This document shows positions 3,679-11,320 of a stretch of 14,229 nt of DNA, piece after piece. Both the position numbers and the translations under genes were made by a program. The stretch is taken from the NCBI GenBank assembly GCA_009920225.1, contig RGAJ01000014.1, positions 1-14,229 of the forward strand, given 5' to 3'. The DNA comes from Paracoccaceae bacterium. Lineage in GTDB: Bacteria; Pseudomonadota; Alphaproteobacteria; Rhodobacterales; Rhodobacteraceae. Each line of letters begins with the position of its first letter. The first letter of the stretch is position 1. The notes under the pieces were generated by a model. The model made no database searches and was not told where the DNA came from. It saw only the letters and a program-made list of their open reading frames with translations.

Positions 3679-3727
3679 CTTTCATCTTTGTAAAAATACT
3701 CGCAGGGGTGTGGGGACGGCAGTCCCC
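3679..3727 (+). repeat. 3'-end repeat element, copy 1 (A/T-rich block plus GC hairpin)
   Basis: A 23-base block (3679-3701, beginning CTTTCATCTTTG) lies five bases after the stop codon of the ThiE-like gene. It is identical to the block at 10275-10297 on the other strand. A G-rich link (GGGGTGTG) follows, then a perfect 6-bp hairpin, GGGGAC-GGCA-GTCCCC (3712-3727). The copy is in the sense orientation of the gene it follows. It probably serves as a transcript 3' end or a stability element, but there is no U-run right after the hairpin on the plus strand. Confidence 0.8.
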
Positions 3728-7550: not shown

Positions 7551-8657
7551 CTAAATTGCCATATCGTCGCGATGCACCAAGGCCGCGCGCCCTGGATAGC
7601 CCAAGATCTCTTCAATCTCGGATGATTTGCGTCCAATCAACGCCAAGGCTTCGTCGCTGGGATATGATATAATACCTTGGCCCAATTCATGACCCTCTGC
7701 GGTGCAAATGGTCACGGCGTCGCCCCGTCTAAACCGACCTGTCACAGCGATCACGCCAGCGGGCAAAAGGCTTTTGCCATGTTCAAGTGCGGTGACCGCA
7801 CCCGCATCAATTTGGATTTGACCCATCGGTTTCATGGCCGATATCCACCGCTTGCGCGCGGCATGCGGATCAAGAGTGGGCATAAACCAAGTGGAATTTG
7901 CCCCCTGTTCCAAGGCCAGCAATGGGGACATAACAGACCCTTCGGTTATGGCCATGGCACAGCCCGACGCAACCGCGGTTTTTGCTGCCATCAGCTTGGT
8001 TTTCATGCCGCCTTTGGATACGCCTGAAATACCGTCGCCTGCCATTGCCTCGATCTCGGGGGTGATGTCATCGATAATGTCGAAACGCTTTGCGGTTGGG
8101 TCAACTTGGGGATTCGCAGAATAAAACCCATCGACGTCCGATAACAGAACCAATTGATCCGCGCCCACCGTCACAGCCACCTGCGCCGCCAAGCGGTCGT
8201 TGTCACCATAACGGATTTCATCGGTCGCCACGGTGTCGTTTTCATTCACAATCGGCACCGCACCCAAGGATAACAACATTTCCAAGGTCGCCCGTGAATT
8301 CAAATACCGCCGCCGATCCGCACTATCCTCAAGCGTGACCAAAACTTGCGCCGTTGTGATCCCAAAAGGTTCCAAAACCTCTTCGTAAGCACGCGCCAAA
8401 CGTATTTGACCAACGGCCGCTGCCGCTTGGCTTTGTTCCAAGGCCAAGCTGCCCTTGGGCAGGTGGAGCGCACCGCGCCCCAACGCGATCGACCCAGACG
8501 ACACCAAAACCACATCCGTGCCGCGTGCCTTGATCCGCGCCACGTCGGCAGCCAAGGATTTCACCCAATCAAGACGCAACGCACCCGTCGCACGATCAAC
8601 CAAAAGGGCTGATCCGATTTTAACAACAAGACGCTTCGCCTCGCTTAGGGTTGCCAT
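7551..8657 (-). CDS. proB: Glutamate 5-kinase with PUA domain
   Basis: ProB phosphorylates glutamate with ATP to gamma-glutamyl phosphate, the committed and usually proline-inhibited step of proline synthesis. The 368-residue protein has an amino-acid-kinase domain (about 1-260) and a C-terminal PUA domain (about 275-355), the usual long form. Visible motifs are [11 protein letters not shown] at the N-terminus, [15 protein letters not shown], the glutamate-binding [29 protein letters not shown], and the ATP-site segment GGMKTKL. The ATG at 8657 overlaps the 3' end of the truncated obg by 13 bp and has GAGGACGACGC in front, which suggests translational coupling to obg. Any change in expression of obg would therefore also affect proline synthesis. 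Confidence 0.98.
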
Positions 8658-9199
8658 TCTGCGTCGTCCTCATCTTGGATCAATCCGCGCAGACGGCTTT
8701 GGTCAATATTGGCCCGCAGCGTGCGCAATACGTCATCCACGCCTTCGCCGCTGACGCCGGACATCAAAATGACAGGGCCGCCTGACAGGCGCTCAAGCTC
8801 TTCTTTAAAGAACGCCCGTTCTTCGTCATCCATCGCGTCAACTTTGTTCAATACGGTAATGCGCGGCTTGTCTGCCAAGCCCGCGCCATATTCATCAAGT
8901 TCGTTTAGGATCACGTTGTATTCATTTAGAAAATCACCAGACGTGCCATCCACCAAATGCAACAAGACCGCGCAGCGTTCAATGTGGCCCAAGAACAAAT
9001 CACCCAAACCACGCCCCTCTGACGCGCCCTCGATCAGACCGGGAATATCGGCGACAACGAATTCTACGCCGTCAATTCCAACCACGCCCAAATTCGGATG
9101 GAGCGTCGTAAAGGGGTAATCCGCAATCTTTGGTCGTGCATTCGATGTTGCCGCCAAAAATGTGGATTTGCCCGCGTTCGGCATGCCCAGCAAGCCCAC
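8645..9199 (-). CDS. obgE: N-terminally truncated Obg GTPase (G domain only); possibly a broken gene
   Basis: Obg/CgtA is a GTPase of ribosome assembly and stress control. The GTPase domain here is complete and undecayed: G1 [10 protein letters not shown]2 [11 protein letters not shown]3 [17 protein letters not shown]4 NKVD, and a G5-like SGVSGEG. Normal Obg is about 340 residues, with a glycine-rich N-terminal Obg domain of about 150-160 residues. That domain is missing. Obg homology can be followed only to 9229 ([15 protein letters not shown]), where the sequence turns into the 3' end of the GNAT gene, and the Obg frame reaches a stop a short way upstream. The first start available in frame is GTG at 9199, 14 nt after the GNAT stop, with no ribosome site; an ATG follows at 9184. 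It may be made by re-initiation, be a remnant of a recent deletion, or reflect a misassembly. The C-terminus overlaps proB. Confidence 0.85.
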
Positions 9200-9213
9200 A
9201 TCTGCAATCAGTT

Positions 9214-10227
9214 TCAGACGCAGCCAAATCGACGCAGGGCATATTCCAAAACGGGCGCAGGCTCAAGCCTTGCTGCAGAGGTGCCCGTGCCGAAACCTGT
9301 CTGATGAAATCCCAACTTTTGCAAAACCGCGCCCGAAGCTGGATTGTCAGTGAAATGATCTGCTGTGATTTGATCAACAGTATATCGCGCGAAAATATGG
9401 GAAATGAACGATTGCATTGCCTCGGTCGCAAACCCCTGTCCCCAAGCATCAGGATGAATGGCAAACATTACCGAGCCGCTTGGCCCGATACCACAGGTTC
9501 CCACCATGCGTTCCCCCGCAAGGATCGCCATGCGAAACCCCAAGCGGCCAAGATAGATTGAGCGCGACAGAATGTCGGCGGCATCATCAATGGGCCATGG
9601 AACCGTTGCAGGCATCATCATGGGGGCAACATCGGGATGCCCTAAAATCTCGGCGAATTGGGTGAGATGATCAAAGGTAAGCGGGGTGAGGACAAGGCGG
9701 TCCGTATGCAAGATCGGTGGGTTTTGTAACGCCCAATCCATGCGGGTCAGTGCGAAATTGCGGCACTGCACCGTTCCCTGTCGCGCCCGCGAATACCACG
9801 TGTTTGGATCTATTTCGCGAAATCCCAGTTTTTCCATCACCCGCAGCGACGCGGGATTGTCCGAATAGACACCGGATGTGATGACATCAAGAGAGGTATT
9901 GCAAAATGCATATTCGACCAACGCGCGGGCCACACGCGTGATGATACCCTGCCCCCAAAATTCGGGATGAAGCGCATAATAGATCATATCGCCCGCCAAT
10001 CCCGCCTGACCGATTACACGGCCCTGATGCGTGATCACGCCACGAATGCCGTCGGTTGCGTCAATCGGCGTGCATCGGTTGCGTACCTGATCTGGATCGG
10101 GCGGATAGGACCAAGAGCCGGTGTTTTTCACGATGTCCCAAATCGCATTCAACGCGAAAAGCGCGTTGTAATCATCGGGATGCACATGGCGCAGGGCAAT
10201 GTCGTCAATTTTGAAAATGTTGGTCAT
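9214..10227 (-). CDS. Two-domain GNAT family N-acetyltransferase (RimJ/RimL type)
   Basis: The 337-residue protein has two GNAT domains in tandem. The N-terminal half has the acetyl-CoA-binding segment [20 protein letters not shown] and the family ending [17 protein letters not shown]. The C-terminal half begins [13 protein letters not shown] and has [17 protein letters not shown] with [14 protein letters not shown]. Both are RimJ/RimL-like, a group that acetylates alpha-amino groups of proteins or small amines; the substrate cannot be told from sequence. The ATG at 10227 is preferred over an upstream start at 10323 because the extra stretch would read through the repeat and hairpin. Its ribosome site is weak. 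The protein ends [11 protein letters not shown], and the last few residues come from DNA that belongs to the obg reading frame, so its original C-terminus and stop have probably been replaced at the same junction that truncated obg. Confidence 0.87.
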
Positions 10228-10244
10228 GGGTTTGCTTTCGTTTT

Positions 10245-10297
10245 GTGGGGGCTTTGCGCCCCCACACCCCCGCAGAGTATTTTTACAAAGATGAAAG
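10245..10297 (-). repeat. 3'-end repeat element, copy 2 (A/T-rich block plus GC hairpin)
   Basis: This is the same 23-base block as at 3679-3701, here on the minus strand (10275-10297). A GC-rich link containing GGGGTGTG follows, then a perfect 8-bp hairpin, GTGGGGGC-loop-GCCCCCAC (10245-10265). It is sense to the preceding GNAT gene, whose last codons (Leu-Ser-Ser-Leu) and TAA stop are read from the block. It fills the 55-bp gap between two GNAT genes. No U-run follows the stem, so read-through into the next gene is plausible. Confidence 0.8.
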
Positions 10298-11320
10298 ATG
10301 ATCGCGTTTGAGGCGATATTCAAGGCTGATCACTTCGTACCTGCGAGACCTCTGGATGAAAGGGACGCGGTCATATTCAGTAAATCCATTTTTGATCAGC
10401 ACCTTTTGCGATGCGGGGTTATCAATCACAGCGCTAGCCAGAATTTGTGAAATGGGGAAGCGGTCAAAGAGAAATGTGATCATGGCTTTGACCGCCTCTG
10501 ACATGTATCCGCGCCCCCAGTGATCGGGATGTAAAGCATAGCCAAGCGACATATCATCCGCCTCGCCGTTGGTGGGGGAGTGAAATCCAACCATACCAAT
10601 GAAGTCGCGCGATTTTGTTTGCAGCGCAAAGGTCGCCGTCCAGCCACCGCTCCAGCGCATCGCATTCATGCGTTTGCGCAAGAGATCGGGATCAAGCGGA
10701 TGTGGCCAGCGGCCCAATTGCCAAGCGACGTCCTTGCGAGACAGCATGTCAAACAGCGGATCAAAATCGTCGGAAACCACCGGATCGATCAACAAACGTT
10801 CGGTTTCTACATGGACAGGATTGAGGGCGTGCCAGTGTTCGGGTGTCAATAGCATGGTCTGCAGATTGACATCTGCCTCATGCGCGCATGAGAAGCGCAT
10901 GGTCACACCGTTTGGCGCAAACCCCAGCTTCCGCAGAACATTTGCAGAGCGATCATTGCCAAGGTGATAGCCTGATTTCAAAGGTGCGGCATAGGGATTG
11001 GCAAAGTAATTTTGCAAGACGGCACGGGCGGCTTCTGTTGCGTAGCCTTTGCCGTGATATTCGGGGGCAAGCCAATAGCCCAATTCACCATCAAGCCCAA
11101 TCATGCCAATAATTTGGCCATGCCGCGTGATCGCCCAAATGGGATCTGATGGGGCGGATTGCACATGTGTCAACCACTCTGCATCAGACAGGTGATAGGG
11201 CCATGGCATCCGCGTGAGCCATTGTGCAACATCGTAAGAGATGAGTGATTTGATCGCATGCGCGTCCTCGATCACGGGGGGACGCAAATATAATCGGTCC
11301 GTTATTATTTGTTTTCTCAT
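10283..11320 (-). CDS. Two-domain GNAT family N-acetyltransferase (RimJ/RimL type)
   Basis: The 345-residue protein again carries two GNAT domains. The first (about 1-165) starts IITDRLYLRPP and has APEYHGKGYATEAARAVLQ and RSANVLRKLGF. The second (about 170-340) starts VETERLLIDPV and has LHPDHWGRGYMSEAVKAM and DNPASQKVLIKNGF. The layout matches the next gene downstream, so the two are probably paralogues from an old duplication that have since diverged. The substrate is unknown. The ATG at 11320 has TTAGGATGCC in front and lies just after the intrinsic terminator at 11338-11362, so this gene may depend on read-through or on a promoter I could not identify. The last four residues and the stop codon come from the 3' repeat element, which may have altered the original end of the protein. 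Confidence 0.88.
   Translation of the reverse strand: MRKQIITDRLYLRPPVIEDAHAIKSLISYDVAQWLTRMPWPYHLSDAEWLTHVQSAPSDPIWAITRHGQIIGMIGLDGELGYWLAPEYHGKGYATEAARAVLQNYFANPYAAPLKSGYHLGNDRSANVLRKLGFAPNGVTMRFSCAHEADVNLQTMLLTPEHWHALNPVHVETERLLIDPVVSDDFDPLFDMLSRKDVAWQLGRWPHPLDPDLLRKRMNAMRWSGGWTATFALQTKSRDFIGMVGFHSPTNGEADDMSLGYALHPDHWGRGYMSEAVKAMITFLFDRFPISQILASAVIDNPASQKVLIKNGFTEYDRVPFIQRSRRYEVISLEYRLKRDHLSSL

Follow-up and report, generated by a model that had tools for sequence, protein, structure and literature searches.

The GTPases of the Obg/CgtA/ObgE type (TIGR02729, NF008956), for which structures have been solved (4csu, 5m04, 1lnz, 1udx), are the closest described relatives of the gene considered here, the ribosome-assembly gene obg. 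Obg homologues are reported to be essential in Caulobacter crescentus and in other bacteria in the passages of PMC4487204 that concern them, and for E. coli ObgE, sections of PMC4028186 describe impaired 50S binding when conserved basic residues of the N-terminal domain are mutated. Local assembly errors in metagenome assemblies are in turn said, in part of PMC7111523, to yield incorrect protein-coding genes. The window, that is the whole stretch of DNA that was analysed, is an entire contig of 14229 b with 0 Ns (C36) from the draft genome G000 (586 contigs totalling 2.43 Mb, with completeness rated at 92.31% and contamination at 2.66%), which appears from its fragmentation and quality figures to be a metagenome assembly.

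The obg remnant and its junction with GNAT2

On the minus strand the window carries, in order, rplU, rpmA, a GNAT gene, GNAT1, GNAT2, a remnant of obg, proB and proA, where the names of rplU, rpmA, proB and proA are putative ones given from their sequences, and the family scans of the locus covered the GNATs and obg only. By these scans GNAT1 (10283..11320, minus strand) and GNAT2 (9214..10227, minus strand; 337 aa as read) are both double-GNAT genes, GNAT2 being an acetyltransferase gene whose relatives among the named genomes are six distant GNATs only. Downstream of the remnant lies a full-length proB (7551..8657, minus strand). A 41-bp intergenic repeat of G/C runs occurs at 10259..10299 (minus strand) and again at 3679-3718, with about 93% identity between both copies and about 90% to that of the sister genome G002, and a tRNA-Ser (CGA) lies at the contig end (14050-14139). 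A promoter and terminator scan of 8600-10400 gave 0 promoter-like sites and 1 terminator-like site, neither number exceeding chance.

The Obg frame is open on the minus strand from 9262 to a stop at 8647-8645 (205 codons) and is closed upstream by an in-frame TGA at 9265-9263. Homology to Obg begins within it at 9229, which corresponds to residue 150 or so in a normal Obg, and the remnant (8645..9229, minus strand) aligns with residues 150-346 of the Obg of G002 at 77% identity. GNAT2 ends with a TGA at 9216-9214 in a different frame, and the two frames overlap by a few codons. The first-pass annotation had described an abrupt onset of Obg similarity at 9229, a GNAT C-terminus directly upstream in another frame and an Obg frame closed by a stop near 9267; all of this was borne out, with coordinates right to within a few bases, and the break in the letters at the junction is confirmed. 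The junction itself occupies 9229..9236 on the minus strand, with the GNAT2 tail resembling that of G002 as far as 9236 and the Obg homology starting at 9229. Since G002 matches the GNAT2 tail only to 9236, the last few GNAT2 codons, from about 9235 down, are probably obg DNA. A GNAT2-Obg fusion protein was ruled out, as the frames differ and no obvious shift site was visible by eye.

What the remnant retains is an Obg-type GTP-binding G domain (MMR_HSR1, 90.2 bits), intact by its sequence from the P-loop onward. It matches positions 149-325 of TIGR02729 at 219.3 bits, below the whole-protein equivalog cut-off of 280.25 bits, whereas the sister Obg scores 439, and it has proB and proA as neighbours, as in the sister. 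The glycine-rich N-terminal domain of Obg (PF01018) gave no match in the remnant, in the window or in the entire draft, where all 3 first-look candidates were scored, and the absence of this domain from the window had been correctly recognised before. When the sister's 157-aa N-terminal domain was compared with the draft at E <= 10, a single match (E 0.15) was obtained, covering 39 residues inside an unrelated 1151-aa frame of another contig, while a full Obg query returned this locus and one other GTPase only. The search that had been proposed for another obg or a free Obg domain thus found neither in the draft by any of the three routes; this is not proof of absence, as the draft is rated 92.31% complete.

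The G domain had been judged free of decay, and the comparison with G002 agrees, giving a dN/dS of 0.086 for the obg G domain against 0.101 for proB and 0.090 for proA, all read with the caveat that dS, at 1.7-2.3, is near saturation. The G domain therefore appears as constrained as its neighbours, which suggests that the loss of the N-terminal domain is either recent or not real; on sequence comparison the constraint would suit an artefact and a recent event equally.

The intact G domain leads to one reading in which a short, G-domain-only Obg is made and works, its translation coupled to the stop of GNAT2. Coupling is conceivable, with a GTG (9197..9199, minus strand) whose first base, 9199, lies 14 bases past the final base of the stop of GNAT2. 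This GTG is, however, the earliest usual start codon of the obg frame, there being no ATG, GTG or TTG before it, it has no Shine-Dalgarno-like stretch upstream, and a protein begun there would lose 10 residues, forming a strand, ahead of the P-loop. Passages of PMC4028186 moreover place the likely main centre of ObgE activity in the N-terminal domain, which enters the peptidyl-transferase centre, and no other internal Obg devoid of this domain was met among the genomes examined. We regard a working short Obg as highly improbable.

Layout of the locus in the sister genome

Among the three genomes of the genus, PF01018 was found in G002 only. The rpmA-proB interval, whose comparison in close relatives had been advised, there holds a full obg of 346 aa between GNAT1 and proB, scoring 199 bits for PF01018 and 90 bits for MMR_HSR1. 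Both sides of the window's junction match this one locus in the expected order, and a chimera of two organisms is not favoured for that reason. Upstream of its obg, G002 has a copy of the 41-bp repeat, followed by a 32-bp stretch which resembles the tail of GNAT2 and lies 28 bp before the obg start. In this stretch 27/32 bases agree with the GNAT2 tail of the window (9267-9236), a score reached by 0/500 dinucleotide shuffles. That G002 keeps just these 32 bp between the repeat and obg (L032, 3937-4081) represents a natural loss of GNAT2 in the sister. Because such a relic, of a gene lost but for its end, stands 28 bp before a complete obg, the ancestral order was probably GNAT2-obg.

Between the anchors on either side, the window has a net 475 bp fewer than G002, which is not a multiple of 3. 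Given a sister layout of GNAT2 relic plus full obg, the window joins two true neighbours across about 475 missing bases, and does so out of frame. At the G002 equivalents of the breakpoints, where G002 stands in for the organism's own missing DNA, there is no common word of >= 6 bp, and a repeat-driven collapse is on this ground less likely.

The best explanation for the junction, and in our view very probably the right one, is an error of local assembly. The order on the real chromosome would then most likely be rplU-rpmA-GNAT-GNAT1-GNAT2-obg-proB-proA with obg at full length. The draft would have lost ~475 bp, made up of the stop of GNAT2, a short spacer and the N-terminal domain of Obg, so that the tail of GNAT2 runs directly into obg at about its codon 150 and no Ns mark the join. 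Such a join presumably lacks support in the reads. Two features speak against an assembly error, namely that the join is made without Ns and that the G002 equivalents of its two sides show no long repeat to explain it.

The same missing bases could instead reflect a real and recent deletion in the population sequenced, one that reaches from the tail of GNAT2 to within obg and whose carriers would be dying, would be a minority strain chosen by the assembler, or would live on a second obg missed by the draft. GNAT genes at this locus do come and go (GNAT2 was lost from G002, where the breakpoint also falls in this tail), the draft reaches a completeness of only 92.31%, and the constraint on the G domain (dN/dS 0.086) fits such an event equally well. 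Against this stand the reported essentiality of Obg, in C. crescentus among others (PMC4487204, in the passages cited above), the second obg that was not found in the draft, and the out-of-frame deletion, unrelated to this one, that nuoH carries in the draft and that is described below. A true deletion is thus an unlikely explanation, though one that deserves more weight than a working short Obg.

A second out-of-frame collapse in nuoH

The single copy of nuoH in the draft encodes residues 1-295 and then, in another frame, residues 317-345; it is 83 bp shorter than its G002 counterpart, and the frame is lost at about 2658-2698 of L118 (G000:C15). Residues 1-345 run without a stop in both relatives of the same genus (G001 and G002). 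A nuoH match was present in 40 of the 41 genomes searched, with none in G035, and the draft is the sole listed genome with nuoH in two pieces; the distant genomes G027 and G028 have nuoH matches listed with one internal stop. Since a second gene is broken out of frame in the same draft, the break in obg is most likely an assembly error. The likeness to the errors treated in the consulted parts of PMC7111523 lies in a faulty protein-coding gene that is internal to a contig in a fragmented draft, with nuoH as a second case.

The draft was checked more widely by comparing ORFs from 61 stretches of G002 (1.21 Mb) with a sample of 60 draft contigs (459 kb, window included). This gave 104 matched genes, 78 of them full, 19 cut by an end and 7 flagged; the flagged set held the clear internal losses of obg and nuoH, one frameshift (G000:C13), one family match of 50% identity, and three N-terminal differences of 27-36 aa that may be start choices. 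The frameshifted gene is a conserved one (L116, 3559-4418), apparently altered relative to G002 by one base near a T run. In an earlier version with 40 contigs (339 kb), 104 ORFs were matched (85 full, 12 cut, 7 flagged), and the flags other than those of obg and nuoH seem to come from shadow frames or from an overlong start. In the reverse direction, 93 ORFs of the draft were matched in G002 (80 full, 4 cut), and the nine flags comprised eight N-terminal differences and one tandem family match. N-terminal flags alone mean little; obg is a different case, having lost 150 residues of a conserved domain. Clear internal losses being so few (obg and nuoH among the 104 matched genes), the draft is not generally broken, a point that counts against an assembly error. 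The idea that Ns in the sampled contigs mark scaffold gaps proved wrong, as they fill three whole contigs and occur nowhere else. The window's contig exceeds most of the sampled ones in length, a fact that in itself bears neither way on errors.

Obg in the family and the meaning of the truncated gene

PF01018 was present in 381 of 394 family genomes, at most 9 candidates being scored per genome. A full Obg query was then put to 19 genomes, with all candidates scored: the 13 in which PF01018 was missed, five whose PF01018 hits were weak or double, and G001. N-truncated Obg G-domain pieces were found in seven of them (G346, G323, G229, G156, G000, G176 and G048), and six of these pieces end no more than 3 bases from the end of a contig, that of G000 alone being internal, which speaks for an assembly error here. 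The other 12 genomes gave matches to other GTPases only, and no obg. In five of these (G351, G116, G175, G410, G097) the N-terminal part of proB is lost at a contig end, and no convincing proB was found in the remaining seven; among the genomes examined, an absent obg thus goes with absent surrounding sequence. Two obg-less genomes without a proB found, G095 (rated 100%, ~20 contigs) and G329 (98%, ~60 contigs), may owe this to an unbinned piece or to real loss. In G330 two long contigs (C75 and C112; L085 and L086) carry strong PF01018 matches, the frames measuring 361 aa and 347 aa, which suggests either a mixed bin or a genome with two copies of obg.

Of the four explanations originally left open for the truncated gene, namely a recent event, a second obg, a working short protein and a wrong join, the last has the strongest support; the draft yielded no second obg, and the start codon and the lost strand before the P-loop make a working short protein unlikely. 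The case serves as a caution, in that a draft rated 92% complete carries core genes with silent internal deletions that no Ns betray and that comparative studies may mistake for truncated or fused genes. That a bacterium of this alphaproteobacterial family should lack the ribosome-binding half of Obg and live on a G-domain-only protein is a notion to which we give scant credence; if true, some lineage could dispense with the domain to which the main activity of Obg is attributed, and the role of that domain at the peptidyl-transferase centre would be challenged. The beheaded obg is most likely not a real feature of the bacterium.
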